Shown: positions 46,286-52,356 of the stretch, one piece after another
Position numbering within the stretch: position 1 is the stretch's first letter
Layout: every line of letters starts with the position of its first letter
Source: Salinicola acroporae
Lineage (GTDB): Bacteria > Pseudomonadota > Gammaproteobacteria > Pseudomonadales > Halomonadaceae
DNA: 64,000 nucleotides
Assembly: GCF_003206615.1 (NCBI RefSeq)
Contig: NZ_PZJW01000002.1
Location: 1 to 64,000, forward strand
Direction: 5' to 3'
Notes under the pieces: model-generated
Database searches by the model: none
What the model was told of the DNA's origin: nothing
The model's input: only the letters and a program-made list of their open reading frames with translations
Translations under genes and position numbers: made by a program

Positions 46286-47716
<1,431 letters not shown>

Positions 47717-47869
47717 GGGATTGGCACCTCCTGCCACCGCTTGTACCTTATCGCTGCCGATCAGGCTGTGTCACGTTCGTTGTGACGCGGTCGCGCGCGC
47801 CGATATGGCCTGGCATCGCGCGGATGGCTTGGTTTGACGTGAGTGTTGTCGTGCGCAGCTTGCGCGTTG

Positions 47870-48412
47870 TCAGTCGCGGGCGTTGATCGTCCGCTCGATA
47901 TCGGTCAACGCTTCCAGCTTGTCCGACATCTCCTTGAGCTGTTGCCTCAGCTTCTCGTTTTCCTGCTTCAGTGCCCGCGTATCGTTGTCTACCGCCCGAT
48001 GGCTCCCGTTCGTGCCTCGCGAGGCATAGAGTTGTCGACGCTCTTCGAGTTCGTTCAGCCATTGCTGCAGCAGAGGCTGCAATCGGGCAGGTGCCGAACC
48101 GATCGAGGCCTTGTAGAAATTCGAGGCCTGGGCCCATTGAGCGGGGCCATCCCAGGAGAGCACCACGGCTCGCACGGCCTTCTGGTCCATGCGGCTGCGA
48201 CCGACCCGCTCCAGCACCTCGTCGCGCCACTCGTCATCGCCCCGCTGCGCTTCCAGCCCGAACGCGACCCAGGAGTCGACCAGGCAGACATTGTCGGCGT
48301 AGGAGGGAATGTCGCCGCAGCCATACTGCCTGGGTTCGCTGGACAATGACTGGCAGCCCGCCAGTGCCATCATGCCGAACAGGGCGAGCGTCGTTCTTAT
48401 CTGACTGACCAT
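47870..48412 (-). CDS. qseG: Outer-membrane lipoprotein QseG
   Basis: 180 residues. The lipoprotein signal ends in MMALAGC (Cys at 20). The mature part has four Cys (YGCGDIPSYADNVCLVDSW), then a helical region; the last about 40 residues (DTRALKQENEKLRQQLKEMSDKLEALTDIE) form a coiled coil. The gene position between glrK and glrR and the coiled-coil end match QseG, a lipoprotein that binds and stimulates the GlrK (QseE) sensor from the periplasm. It starts inside the end of glrK (16-base overlap). Confidence 0.82.
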   Translation of the reverse strand: MVSQIRTTLALFGMMALAGCQSLSSEPRQYGCGDIPSYADNVCLVDSWVAFGLEAQRGDDEWRDEVLERVGRSRMDQKAVRAVVLSWDGPAQWAQASNFYKASIGSAPARLQPLLQQWLNELEERRQLYASRGTNGSHRAVDNDTRALKQENEKLRQQLKEMSDKLEALTDIERTINARD

Positions 48413-49920
48413 GTTTCTTTCCTTGCCTCACCGCCCGGAAACGTATCGTCCGGCGCGGCCTCATTATCGTGTTGCGCGCCGCGCAGCGGCGCGCTGGCCC
48501 ACGGTAGCGTGAGCCGGAAACAGACGGGCAATTCGGTATCATCCACCAGCGCCAGCTTCCCGTCCTGCAATCGAGCGCAGTCCGCGGCGACCGAGAGTCC
48601 GATACCGGAGCCCTTGAGCGGCCCCTTCCGACGCGCGCTGCCCTGATAGAACGCTTCGAACAGGTGCTCGCGATCCAACTCGGCAATGGGCTCCCCGCTA
48701 TTGGCGACATCCAGTGCCAGCCAGTCACGCTGGTGGGTGGCGCGAATCACCAGTTCGCCACCGTCGCTGCCATAGGCGATCGCGTTGGAGATCAGGTTGT
48801 CCAGCACCCGGGCCGTGCGCTCCCGATCCGCCTGCCAGGTCAGCGGATGATGCGGACTCCGGACCTGCATGCCCTTGTTGTCGAGTGCCAGGCGGTGCTT
48901 GGAGAGAACCTCCTGGATGACCGTGGCGACATCGAACTGGGTGACCTTCATTCGACGACTGTTCTGCAGCAGATTGTAATCCAGAAGCTGCTCGATCAAG
49001 GTCTGCAGCTCCAGGCCATTTTCATCGATCAGCCTGACGACCTCGCTCTGGCGTTCGTTGAGTTCCCCGGCCACGCCGTCGGACAACAGTGACGTGCCCT
49101 CGCGAACGCTGGCCAGCGGCGTTTTCAGCTCGTGCGACATGTGGCGCAGGAACTGCTGCTTCTGCGCTTCGAGCTCGGACAAGCGCCCCGACAACCAGGT
49201 CAGCCGCTCGCCCAATTGGACCAGCTCGGCGGGCCCCTGGATGCGGGTCGGCGTGTCACTGTGATCGCCACTGCCGAGGCCGAAGATCCGTCGCTCGAGT
49301 TGGCGGATCGGGCGAGTGATCAGCCAGGTGAAGAACAGCATCAGCATCAGGCTGGCGGAAACCAGGGCAGCGGTCTGCATCCACAGCCGAGCCTTCACCG
49401 CGTCGGCCTGTTCGCGGATATCGGCGATGCGCGCGTCGATCAGGTCGTTGGTGGCGTCCCTCACCGCATCGGACTCCGCGGCAAATCCCGAGAACCGCTG
49501 CAAGAACGCGCCCATATCATCGTCAACCGAGGACGACGGCAGCACCCGAAGTTGGCGGAAGCGCTCGACCAGCGACTGAAAGTCTGGGTTGTCGCGCATC
49601 AGCGGCTCGTGCTGTTGGAGCAGTTCACCGAACTGTCGGGCCTTCTGATTGTAGATATCGCGCAGGCCCTCCTCCTCGATCACCGCATACTGGCGGGCGC
49701 TGCGCTCCATCTGCAATGCCAGCGAGCTCAGCATGCGCGCGCGGCGGGTCTCCTCGACGGCTTGACGAGCGCTCTGGTCAGCCAGGCTCGAGAGCTGCGA
49801 CAACGCCTGACCGGCCTGAAACATCAGCACGGCTATCGGCAGCATGACGACGACGAAGGCAAGCAACACCAATTGCAGAAGCGAGCGAGGCCGCCAACGT
49901 CGGGAGAGCTCGGTGGTCAT
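48397..49920 (-). CDS. glrK: Sensor histidine kinase GlrK (QseE)
   Basis: 507 residues from the ATG at 49920, chosen because MTTELSRRWRPRSLLQLVLLAF lines up with the start of the enteric kinase; an ATG at 49956 is also in frame. One membrane helix at 15-40, a helical periplasmic domain to about 190, a second helix (TAALVSASLMLMLFFTWLI), then HAMP, HisKA (FLRHMSHELKTPLASVREGTSLL) and HATPase (NLISNAIAYGSDGGELV, GIGLSVAADCARLQDGKLAL). It phosphorylates GlrR. First gene of glrK-qseG-glrR, the order found in enterobacteria. Confidence 0.92.
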   Translation of the reverse strand: MTTELSRRWRPRSLLQLVLLAFVVVMLPIAVLMFQAGQALSQLSSLADQSARQAVEETRRARMLSSLALQMERSARQYAVIEEEGLRDIYNQKARQFGELLQQHEPLMRDNPDFQSLVERFRQLRVLPSSSVDDDMGAFLQRFSGFAAESDAVRDATNDLIDARIADIREQADAVKARLWMQTAALVSASLMLMLFFTWLITRPIRQLERRIFGLGSGDHSDTPTRIQGPAELVQLGERLTWLSGRLSELEAQKQQFLRHMSHELKTPLASVREGTSLLSDGVAGELNERQSEVVRLIDENGLELQTLIEQLLDYNLLQNSRRMKVTQFDVATVIQEVLSKHRLALDNKGMQVRSPHHPLTWQADRERTARVLDNLISNAIAYGSDGGELVIRATHQRDWLALDVANSGEPIAELDREHLFEAFYQGSARRKGPLKGSGIGLSVAADCARLQDGKLALVDDTELPVCFRLTLPWASAPLRGAQHDNEAAPDDTFPGGEARKETWSVR

Positions 49921-50079
49921 GAGATTCGCTCTGTGCAGGATACCCATTGGGGTCATGGATCGTTCCGCAAGGATAACATCTTTGTTGAAAGCCCATTCAG
50001 ATCGAACCGTTGAGCGCGAATCCGAATCTCATCCGCCGGTCGACAGTGCCGGTACCGATCGTGGGCGGGGAATCCACTC

Positions 50080-50107
50080 AAAAAAAGAGGGCCGGCAGAG
50101 CCGGCCC
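50080..50107 (-). terminator. Terminator between the RNA candidate and glrK
   Basis: On the minus strand GGGCCGGC, loop TCT, GCCGGCCC, then TCTTTTTTT. The stem (50089-50096 with 50100-50107) is perfect. It points away from argA and lies about 160 bases before glrK. The argA message ends at its own terminator (50642-50690), so this one must end a separate transcript that starts between them. Confidence 0.88.
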
Positions 50108-50526
50108 AAGGTACGCAGGGAACTGAAGGGTCGAGAACGACCTTGAAACACTGCCTGAATCAGCTATTCGAGATCGCTCCCGTGGCCCGAAGGCCCCGAA
50201 GCCAGTATTCGACTGAGCCATTCAGGGGCTACCGAATACCGGGGCGGCGAACCGCCTGCTTCGTCTTCGCGCCGGTCGCCGGAGTGTGGTCCGGCGGCCG
50301 GCTGCAATGGGTCCCCTCTCACGAGGGGGAAGGCATCCTTGCCGGGGCATCCTTGCCCAAGTGGTGCATCTCCTTGCCCGATGGGCCGCACCCGTCTCAT
50401 CGCAACCTAAGTCACACATCGCGTGGAGCGGACGCTGACGAATCCTGAAGGCCCTGCACAGGGTAGTCGAGGCACCTGCCAGGATTCGGCGAGACAAGTC
50501 CGAGGACATCGTCTCGTCGCTCTCGA
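50080..50526 (-). ncRNA. Candidate CsrA-binding small RNA upstream of glrK
   Basis: No protein frame makes sense here, yet the stretch lies between a sigma-54-type promoter and a terminator. On the minus strand three neighbouring hairpins hold GGA in the loop: GCAAGGAGATGC (50366-50377), GGGCAAGGATGCCC (50345-50358) and GGCAAGGATGCC (50332-50343). CAAGGATG fits the CsrA/RsmA recognition sequence ACARGGAUG. A stable hairpin CCCCTC/GAGGGG follows (about 50311-50329), and other GGA sites occur near 50442 and 50500. The length (about 445 nt) is near that of CsrB. By location, promoter type and orientation it corresponds to glmY of enterobacteria, but I do not see GlmY sequence. The 5' end is estimated from the promoter. 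Confidence 0.55.
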
Positions 50527-50536
50527 TCTAGATTAT

Positions 50537-50641: not shown

Positions 50642-50690
50642 AAAAAAAAGGGTCGAAAACGTCGGCTTTGACCGACGCTTTTTGACCCTT
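50642..50690 (-). terminator. Terminator of argA (nested hairpin)
   Basis: On the minus strand GGGTC, CGTCGG-loop-CCGACG inside, then GACCC and eight T. The outer stem is at 50650-50654 and 50684-50688, the inner at 50660-50665 and 50672-50677. It lies about 90 bases past the argA stop. The inner stem doubles as one of the GTC-N10-GAC dyads. Confidence 0.88.
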
Positions 50691-50787
50691 TCTCTTCTAT
50701 TTCAATAAAATCATATACTTGACGCGTCTCCATTTGGAGACGCCGTGATGAGAAACTGCCCGCTTCGAGTGTCGCTTTACAGCGACT
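50660..50787 (-). promoter_or_regulatory. Three GTC-N10-GAC dyads, candidate GlrR binding sites
   Basis: CGTC-N10-GACG at 50660-50677, CGTC-N10-GACG at 50725-50742 and TGTC-N10-GACT at 50770-50787. GlrR of enterobacteria binds TGTC-N10-GACA in several copies upstream of glmY. Here all three share the GTC-N10-GAC core and lie about 140, 210 and 250 bases upstream of the predicted sigma-54 start, a normal distance for an enhancer. The first also forms the inner stem of the argA terminator, so function as a binding site is not certain. Confidence 0.5.
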
Positions 50788-52135
50788 TGAGCAGTACCTT
50801 GGAGCGCCGAGCCTGATCGTAGGTCTCGCGCTTGAGGTCCGGCAACGCTTCCGGCGTGGAGAGCGAGAAGCCCCGCTCCACGAACCAGTGGGTGGTATGG
50901 GTGGTCAGGGCGAACAACCGGGTGAACCCCCGGCGACGCGCACGACGCTCTATCTCCGCCAGCAGCGTCTCCCCTCGGGTTCCCCGGCGATAATCGGTAT
51001 GCACGGCCAGACAGGCGAGCTCTCCCATCTTCGCTTCGGTGTAGCCATGCAGCGCGGCACAGCCGATCGCCATGCCGTCACGGTCGATCACCACGTAATC
51101 CTCGATCTCGTGTTCGAGCCGCTCGCGAGTTCGAGCCACCAGCATGCCACTGGCCTCGAGCGGCTTGAGCAGGGCCAGCAGGCCACCGACGTCATCCAGC
51201 ACCGCCTGGCGCAGCAGCTCGTAGCGATTCTGGGTGATCATGGTGCCGACGCCATCGCGGGTGAACAGCTCGCCGAGCAGAGCGTCATGATCGCGCCACG
51301 AGAGCAGATGGGTACGGCCGACACCGTGGCGGGCCGCGCCGCAGGCGGCACTGAGGTGGCGGGAGAGTTCGCTGCCGGGGCTGGCCCGTTCGCGCAGGAT
51401 ATCGGCCTCGTCGGGGGTCAGTTGGCGCTGCAACTGGCCGTCGTCGTCGTGCAGTCCGGCCGACTCGCCGAGCAGGATCAGCTTGTCCGCCTTGAGCGAG
51501 ACCGCCACGTGCTGGGCGATTTCCGAGGCGTCGAGGTCGAAGACCTCTCCCGTACGGGAGTAGCCCAGAGGAGGCAGGATCACCAGATTGCCACCGGCGA
51601 GCAGGCTCTCGATGGCCTCGCTGCGGACCCGGCGCACTTCCCCGCTGTGGTCGAAATCCACGCCGCCGCGCACACCCAGCGGCTTGGCCGAAACCAGGTT
51701 GCCGGAAACCGCCGTGAGCTCCACGCCGTGCAACGGCGTGTTGGGCAGACCCAGGGAGAGCTGGGCCTCCAGCTCGAGCCGGTGGACCGCCGCGATCCGT
51801 TCGACATGATCCATGATCTCGCGATCGGCCACCCAGCGCCCGTCGACGTGAACCGGCTCGACCTCGGCACTCTCGAGAGCGGCGGCGACCTGGGGCCGGA
51901 TGCCGTAGACGAGCACCACCCTCACGCCCAGGGTGTGCACCAGCGCCAGATCCTGCAGCAACTGCCCGCGCCACGACGACGCCATCGCCTCGCCCTCCAC
52001 CAGAACGACGAAGGTCTTGCCACGGTGGGCATTGACATAGGGCGATGAGTGGCGAAACCAGTCGACGAAGGGAAAACGCGAGTCCAAGGGGTTGACGCTC
52101 CGGCAATGAGACAGGGCTCTGAGGACACACTGCAT
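50777..52135 (-). CDS. argA: N-acetylglutamate synthase
   Basis: 452 residues from the ATG at 52135 (an in-frame TTG lies six codons upstream). The amino-acid-kinase-like domain covers about 1-290 (WFRHSSPYVNAHRGKTFVVLVEGEA, RVVLVYGIRPQVAAAL, VSAKPLGVRGGVDFDHSGEVR). The C-terminal GNAT domain has LACLAVHTDYRRGTRGETLL as its acetyl-CoA motif and FALTTHTTHWFVERGF. It acetylates glutamate, the first step of arginine synthesis, and such enzymes are inhibited by arginine. A possible extended -10 element (TGGTATAGT, 52298-52306) lies upstream. It ends at the nested terminator at 50642. Confidence 0.95.
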   Translation of the reverse strand: MQCVLRALSHCRSVNPLDSRFPFVDWFRHSSPYVNAHRGKTFVVLVEGEAMASSWRGQLLQDLALVHTLGVRVVLVYGIRPQVAAALESAEVEPVHVDGRWVADREIMDHVERIAAVHRLELEAQLSLGLPNTPLHGVELTAVSGNLVSAKPLGVRGGVDFDHSGEVRRVRSEAIESLLAGGNLVILPPLGYSRTGEVFDLDASEIAQHVAVSLKADKLILLGESAGLHDDDGQLQRQLTPDEADILRERASPGSELSRHLSAACGAARHGVGRTHLLSWRDHDALLGELFTRDGVGTMITQNRYELLRQAVLDDVGGLLALLKPLEASGMLVARTRERLEHEIEDYVVIDRDGMAIGCAALHGYTEAKMGELACLAVHTDYRRGTRGETLLAEIERRARRRGFTRLFALTTHTTHWFVERGFSLSTPEALPDLKRETYDQARRSKVLLKSL

Positions 52136-52356
52136 AAATGGCTGCGCGGGCAAATCACGTCGTTGTGCGGTGCCGGGGCGCCGGTCCGATCGGAATCCTC
52201 AGCTATACCCCATAGGCTCCGGTTCCTGTGCTCCGCACGCCTCGTGCTTTACGCCGCTCGTCAATTTATTCAGCGCTTCTTAAACGAGTCTGCGTCAACT
52301 ATACCAGAGCATCTCGGGGCCGGTAGAGCAGGACCGGCGTGCTCGGCGCCGGCAGA

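Follow-up and report, generated by a model that had tools for sequence, protein, structure and literature searches.

An intergenic region of Salinicola acroporae, located between argA and glrK on the minus strand of a 64,000 nt stretch of DNA (here called the window, all positions being counted from its first letter), almost certainly harbours a real small RNA (sRNA) gene of 448 nt (50080-50527). The account which we consider probable for the RNA as a whole is that of a GlrK/GlrR-activated, sigma-54-transcribed sRNA made up of two modules, namely a core carrying three CsrA-type sites and an invariant module at the 3′ end. According to this account an envelope signal would be perceived by the sensor kinase GlrK, a role carried over from Enterobacteria, upon which phosphorylated GlrR would bind to GTC-N10-GAC sites and drive transcription at a -24/-12 promoter; the three CANGGA sites of the core would bind CsrA dimers, thereby removing CsrA from its mRNAs, while the 3′ module would act apart, most likely through pairing of UUCCCU with mRNA leaders. 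Gene structure, conservation, covariation, the fixed and free nucleotides of the sites, the phasing of the upstream activator sites and the existence of the module without the core can be read from the sequences, and from these we infer transcription, control by GlrR, CsrA binding, titration and any base pairing.

Gene boundaries and genomic context

The predicted sRNA gene is followed on the same strand by glrK (qseE; 48397-49956), at a distance of 124 nt from the terminator, and beyond it by a qseG-like gene (47870-48412) and glrR (qseF; 46286-47737), while argA (50777-52153, minus strand) forms the other flank. The glrK product contains HisKA and HATPase_c domains, is 99% identical to GlrK of S. 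lusitanus CR50 and is named from its operon position; it has none among the 25 NCBIfam rows shown at cut-off. The qseG-like lipoprotein (YfhG) was recognized by PF13942 (38.6 bits, cut-off 27), its score of 39.5 bits against the QseG model NF007997 being below the cut-off of 234 bits, and GlrR, a sigma-54-dependent response regulator, was identified by NF011695 (806 bits, cut-off 763). The Salinicola genome also encodes a CsrA protein (csrA) and a RapZ-family protein (PF03668).

The first-pass annotation had placed a promoter at the start of this region and a terminator at its end, and both were found: the sRNA is predicted to start at approximately 50527, 11 nt downstream of the GC in the -12 element of a sigma-54-type promoter, and the intrinsic terminator (50080-50107) comprises a stem at 50107-50089 with 8 GC pairs followed by a T run. 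The view that the region is noncoding likewise stood up to analysis, as 156 of the 178 indel runs in the core, in an alignment of 39 genomes (A1), were not multiples of three, and a conserved protein over the core was rejected because no frame was open across its 170 nt in all 39 genomes (best frame, 20 of 39). Folding of the stretch, proposed at the outset as a check, gave a z-score of -6.06 with none of 100 shuffles equally stable. Orthologous transcripts, cut by script in 47 genomes, measured 389-485 nt in 43 of them and 209, 354, 548 and 561 nt in the others, a set in which the end for one genome (G101) was placed too early.

Promoter and control region

The promoter (TGGCACGGCTATCGCA, 50552-50537, minus strand) conforms to the -24/-12 pattern, and a sigma-54-like match was detected upstream of glrK in 48 of 56 regions as compared to 0.5 expected from base shuffles. 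Further upstream, three minus-strand sites fit the GTC-N10-GAC consensus ascribed to GlrR/QseF: GTCGGTCAAAGCCGAC at -149 (50661-50676), GTCTCCAAATGGAGAC at -214 (50726-50741), a position shared by 5 of 47 genomes, and GTCGCTGTAAAGCGAC at -259 (50771-50786), which overlaps the end of argA and whose position recurs in no other of the 47. Such sites occurred in 35 of 47 upstream regions against 3.2 expected from base shuffles, mostly around -139/-150 and -204/-214, at spacings of one or about six helical turns, and thus stand in helical phase. As the -149 site overlaps a terminator-like hairpin after argA, it may serve both uses or only that of argA. For E. coli, three TGT-N12-ACA sites ahead of glmY have been reported as QseF binding sites (PMC6075780), and TGTCN10GACA is quoted for Proteus (PMC8745638). 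GacA-box-like sites, allowing up to three mismatches to the box, were present at chance level only (6 of 47 regions as compared to 5.6 expected). The arrangement is thus of the GlmY type with respect to its position upstream of glrK and its sigma-54 promoter, the GlrR sites being assigned by consensus only, and it suggests that the sRNA is very probably subject to GlrR/sigma-54 control.

Sequence conservation of the CsrA-type sites

Three AAGGA elements on the minus strand, which had been taken as matches to the CsrA/RsmA recognition sequence, were confirmed in sequence and coordinates as GCAAGGAGATGC (50377-50366), GGGCAAGGATGCCC (50358-50345) and GGCAAGGATGCC (50343-50332), designated here sites 1, 2 and 3. 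The signal from the single sequence is moderately above chance: the 448 nt contain three CANGGA motifs against a shuffle mean of 0.55 (three or more in 6 of 300 shuffles) and two GGA hairpins of at least four Watson-Crick pairs against a mean of 0.18 (reached in 2 of 300 shuffles), with an overall density of 1.79 GGA per 100 nt (8 in 448 nt).

The decisive evidence comes from conservation, which offers strong comparative support for these being CsrA-type sites. All three retain CANGGA in 39 of 39 aligned Halomonadaceae, in keeping with the expectation that GGA sites should recur upstream of glrK in relatives, and at every site C, A, G, G and A are fixed while N and X of ANGGAX are free, N being A21/T13/C4/G1 at site 1, A32/T4/C3 at site 2 and A24/T14/C1 at site 3. 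This pattern agrees with the published high-affinity motif of RsmE, in which ANGGAX forms a hexaloop on a stem (PMC4005645); the SELEX consensus for CsrA is RUACARGGAUGU (PMC7652899). The 39 of 39 counts derive from a selected set, since membership of A1 was decided by the anchor G[CT]GATGAGA together with at least one CA.GGA.GC. Eight of the 47 transcripts, which were left out as they do not contain the anchor, carry one to three GGA hairpins apiece; in one of these (G015) the single hairpin is weak, being matched in 36 of 300 shuffles, and the RNA has one CANGGA, which does not exceed the shuffle level. A less circular test was provided by a covariance model built from A1 and run on 66 chosen loci. 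It matched all 66, representing 45 distinct sequences of which 36 lie outside A1; the 31 of these that are linked to glrK all contain three CANGGA, while each of the five sibling copies located elsewhere contains two CANGGA along with three or more ANGGA. Directly 5′ of the sites lies a conserved element, GTTGCGATGAGAC (50394-50406, minus strand), 11 of whose 13 positions are identical in all 39 genomes and part of which, G[CT]GATGAGA, doubled as the anchor by which the 39 were chosen; this element has no GGA site and no clear covarying helix.

RNA structure and accessibility

The first-pass annotation had drawn the three sites as loops of three short adjacent hairpins, which proved correct for sites 2 and 3 only. 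Hairpin 2 (50345-50358) and hairpin 3 (50332-50343), both on the minus strand, each expose an ANGGAX hexaloop (CAAGGATG) on a stem, the layout seen in high-affinity RsmE sites, with N and X variable. For site 1 the alignment supports, in place of the 3-bp stem originally drawn, a larger covarying hairpin (50392-50363) in which the site (CAAGGA, 50376-50371; GGA at 50373-50371) lies in a lateral bulge, 3′ of helix 2 and within helix 1. Both helices of hairpin 1 covary, as illustrated by its column pairs 45-70 (AU:28 GC:8 GU:2 UA:1) and 49-59 (CG:34 AU:5).

Across A1, 97.1% of the cells in the proposed stems are paired as compared to at most 45.5% when the structure is slid along the alignment, with all cells of hairpin 2 paired. 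Double changes affect 7 of 16 pairs (2.9 in shuffled data) and 24 cells (5.2 in shuffled data), while the number of additional pair types stands out less (14 versus 11.4, reached in 20 of 500 shuffles). The covariation resides mainly in helices 1 and 2 and to some extent in hairpin 2; hairpin 3 has none of its own because its stem is invariant. The predicted unpaired probability of the GGA at sites 1, 2 and 3 is 0.42, 0.87 and 0.96 for the window sequence (0.32 for the whole RNA), the means over 38 genomes being 0.52, 0.81 and 0.72 (whole RNA 0.35); for the 3′ module the corresponding values are 0.55 (window) and 0.45 (mean). Sequence conservation and structure together make it likely that the RNA binds CsrA.

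Searches against known RNA families

No match at the gathering score was obtained with Rfam over the window or at the loci of five relatives. Relaxing the search to E 10 around the gene returned 17 sub-threshold matches; GlmY and GlmZ were absent from these, and the comparison with Csr/Rsm families (CsrB, CsrC, RsmX/Y/Z, PrrB) that had been suggested gave no match inside the transcript, the sole match of this type being PrrB_RsmZ (E 0.95) at 50652-50760, outside the transcript. The analysis supports the view that the position held by glmY before glrK is here taken by an sRNA-like gene, and this gene has no match to the Rfam GlmY and GlmZ models. The RsmY model, run on the window's own genome for a second Csr sRNA, returned 15 weak matches, none above cut-off, the best at the end of a gene that reads as rpmA, and below-cut-off matches to this model were obtained in 10 of 14 control genomes as well.

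Distribution in the Halomonadaceae

Of 151 family genomes, 118 contain a GlrK match scoring 300 bits or more (some kinase match being present in all 151), and 56 of these loci, picked for spread across genera, were examined. Transcripts were cut in 47, nine genomes (G002, G016, G017, G018, G022, G036, G037, G042 and G054) having been excluded beforehand since one or other of promoter, terminator and GGA site was not clear at first look; two of the nine, G022 and G036, do carry the 3′ module, the former with a sigma-54 match and the latter with a near match by eye. The core covariance model matched 98 of the 151 genomes, one merely at 3e-4, and once in the window's own genome. All 97 genomes with a core at E of 1e-6 or better also possess GlrK, a co-occurrence which is partly due to the two sharing a locus, and 21 of the 118 GlrK-bearing genomes gave no core match. 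The RNA is carried, among others, by Halomonas elongata 153B, Chromohalobacter, Cobetia and several Halomonas species. In a sample of the order, 5 of 145 genomes matched, three being family members, and the two remaining matches (L263, L264) were rejected as weak and located inside coding genes. In some Salinicola genomes the glrK match is split (G087, G116) or interrupted by stops (three TGA in G134, one TAA in G087), and in these three genomes the sRNA region is kept.

An invariant 3′ module and its sibling RNAs

The most constant part of the RNA is a near-invariant module, CCCTTCAGTTCCCTGCGTACCTT (50108-50130, minus strand), which directly precedes the terminator, and the tail CCCUUCAGUUCCCUGCGUACC together with a terminator also ends sister sRNAs. 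The pattern AGTTCCC?TGCGTA occurs upstream of glrK in 49 of 56 regions, and the exact module core, CAGTTCCCTGCGTA, was found in 101 of 151 family genomes as compared to 11 for a reversed control pattern. It occurs once in the window's own genome, while 12 genomes, nine of them of one genus, contain extra exact copies, with five in all in G122. Twenty further places were examined, consisting of 18 exact copies (in 11 genomes, including G044 and G132), the near-copy L279 and a weak model match, L284, at which the module was not found. The copies in G132 and G044 (L282 and L283) lie within apparent genes and are not followed by a terminator, and were dismissed as chance matches.

The remaining siblings combine core and tail in different ways. 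A core with the module or a near-module is present at L101, L275-L277 and L279; shorter siblings with one to three CANGGA were found at L102, L103, L266, L270, L274, L278, L280 and L281; and two GGA-rich, CsrB-like siblings ending in the module have five (L273) and three (L268) predicted GGA hairpins. At L265, L271 and L272, and in second copies at L065 and L085, the module follows a sigma-54-like element and there is no CANGGA, the second copy of L065 containing one GGA hairpin; the upstream region of glrK in G022 likewise has the module behind a sigma-54-like element and no CANGGA. The promoter-like elements of L265, L266, L268, L271, L272 and L281 were read by eye, having been missed by the script, in the case of L265, L271 and L272 because they stand too near for its limits, and no sigma-54-like element was found at L104, L105, L267 or L269. 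Two loci of genus g8, L065 and L085, have two tandem sRNA-like genes before glrK, the second one short, each with a sigma-54-type promoter and the 3′ module. In siblings of the L265 type a second UUCCCU was noticed by eye in a hairpin loop.

Several copies of the module lie near genes of prophage character, namely an S24 peptidase gene (L104, module at oriented position 1831), an RdgC gene (L105, module at 1629) and a frame that reads as repressor-like (L269). In a poorly selective 14-mer scan of a viral collection at least 87 matches were listed, at least seven of them with a T run no more than 50 nt away, and in two of the listed contigs (L359, L361) the module with a hairpin terminator was recognized by eye. 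It is possible that the module and terminator on such prophage-like or provirus DNA represent phage mimics of the tail.

The occurrence of the module with or without CANGGA indicates that the CsrA sites and the tail are separable. A role of the module as a base-pairing seed would have about even chances. Pairing with the leaders of 13 glmS genes from 12 genomes was no better than shuffles (for this set only the 3′ module was paired, and it includes G002 and G010, both without a core match), and the same applied to the csrA and glrK leaders. Near-complements of the module were not enriched genome-wide (20, one being the gene itself, as compared to 34 for the reversed pattern), and 15 of the 19 others fall within frames exceeding 150 codons on either strand. 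A role in turnover is also possible, as CsrB has an unstructured RNase E site at such a position, just before its terminator, where CsrA protects it from cleavage (PMC7652899).

Alternative explanations

The first-pass annotation had proposed a CsrA-titrating RNA wired to GlrK/GlrR. A control region of GlrR/sigma-54 type (35 of 47 and 48 of 56 regions, as above) and the CsrA-type sites agree with this proposal, which missed the 3′ module; since the module-bearing siblings include some without CANGGA, titration is probably only half of the function. As a main effect of this sRNA, titration of CsrA appears somewhat favoured. Certain features speak against the two-module account: there are just three strong CsrA sites, site 1 is modelled as no simple hairpin and as only partly accessible (0.42), and in the module-only siblings the tail, if working, would do so without CsrA sites. 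To these are added the lack of an Rfam Csr/Rsm match in the transcript, the 21 GlrK-bearing genomes with no core match, the single CANGGA of G015 and the empty search for targets of the module. Conversely, the RNA may chiefly be a base-pairing regulator acting through its 3′ module, with CsrA on the core setting RNA stability or activity and titration negligible. The small number of CsrA sites, the extreme constancy of the module, its presence behind a sigma-54-like element where CANGGA is absent (L265, L271, L272, G022) and the shielding of CsrB by CsrA from RNase E near the terminator (PMC7652899) would all suit such a regulator; however, no pairing target for the module emerged from the glmS, csrA and glrK leaders or from the genome-wide near-complements, and the GGA-rich siblings with five and three predicted hairpins fit titration, so that we judge this reading unlikely. 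Beyond the two-module sRNA itself, we tentatively suggest that the Halomonadaceae may possess a modular sigma-54/GlrR sRNA regulon, in which one tail, serving as a universal seed or protein handle, would be joined to CsrA-decoy cores of differing strength or to none, with as many as five copies in one genome, and would have been copied by prophages to tap the network, a proposal whose chances we put at rather less than even.

The slot and the type of control resemble those of glmY, and a RapZ-family gene is present, as would be expected if this were the local GlmY or GlmZ, diverged in sequence and acting as a RapZ decoy or glmS activator; it is nevertheless very improbable that it is, given the absence of a GlmY or GlmZ model match up to E 10 and of module-glmS leader pairing above shuffle level, and a length about twice that of GlmY and GlmZ. 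A cis-acting leader, in which CsrA on the nascent RNA governs read-through into glrK, would be in line with the terminator ending 124 nt short of glrK, which has the same orientation, and with the co-transcription of glmY and qseEGF in Proteus (PMC8745638), but the core together with a module or near-module and a terminator also exists in paralogs elsewhere in their genomes (L101, L275-L277, L279), one of them (L101) adjoining a putative TRAP transporter gene, and read-through from glmY into qseE is reportedly virtually absent in E. coli (PMC6075780), which leaves this explanation highly unlikely. That the GGA pattern arose accidentally, in an intergenic region rich in GC, has next to no probability: three CANGGA were reached by 6 of 300 shuffles of the single sequence, but site-by-site conservation and covariation across many genera contradict this explanation.

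Comparison with known systems

Like the Csr/Rsm sRNAs (CsrB, CsrC, RsmX/Y/Z and Pf1-3 of Pseudoalteromonas), the sRNA described here is intergenic, terminator-ended and predicted to present ANGGA in hairpin loops, its host encodes CsrA, and sibling copies exist in some genomes. It differs from them in having only three strong sites, where the Csr sRNAs of Pseudoalteromonas have 9-25 GGA motifs (PMC11882849), putative control of the sigma-54/GlrR type rather than by GacA boxes, an invariant 3′ module and no Rfam match. With its few GGA sites and candidate base-pairing region it can be likened, by description, to two base-pairing sRNAs of E. coli, McaS and GadY, which are described as binding and antagonising CsrA (PMC7652899); unlike theirs, any pairing by this sRNA is conjectural, the target search with the module having been empty.

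The idea of a sigma-54-driven Rsm sRNA is not new, as RpoN-linked RsmA-binding sRNAs were predicted in Pseudomonas syringae in 2017 and non-Gac activators proposed (PMC5568370). Those predictions resemble the present case in placing an RsmA/CsrA-type sRNA behind a sigma-54-like site, and differ, compared by description, in that glrK is absent among the flanking genes named, several of which are bare locus tags; the main text of that paper nowhere mentions Halomonas or Chromohalobacter. It also states that all species with experimentally validated RsmA-regulating sRNAs have Gac, which is involved in activating these sRNAs (PMC5568370). In a comparative-genomics table from 2020 the Csr sRNA of Halomonas anticariensis is given as unknown (PMC7366521), and a study modelling CsrA targets in Halomonas hydrothermalis nowhere mentions CsrB (PMC12889724). 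Among the open-access papers listed on Halomonas and Chromohalobacter Csr sRNAs, GlrR/GlmY, RsmE and McaS, no description of this RNA was encountered. The locus is a concrete, testable candidate both for a Csr sRNA of the kind not named for Halomonas anticariensis and for one with a non-Gac activator, and a tail common to siblings that have CsrA sites and siblings that do not raises the sharp question of what role the tail plays.

The closest positional counterpart is GlmY of the Enterobacteriaceae, which likewise lies directly before glrK-qseG-glrR and has a sigma-54 promoter and GlrR/QseF-type sites. Unlike GlmY, the Salinicola RNA carries CsrA-type sites, and it shows neither a GlmY/GlmZ model match nor a module-glmS pairing signal. 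In the slot which Enterobacteria give to GlmY, a candidate Csr-type RNA would here be tied to an envelope-sensing kinase.
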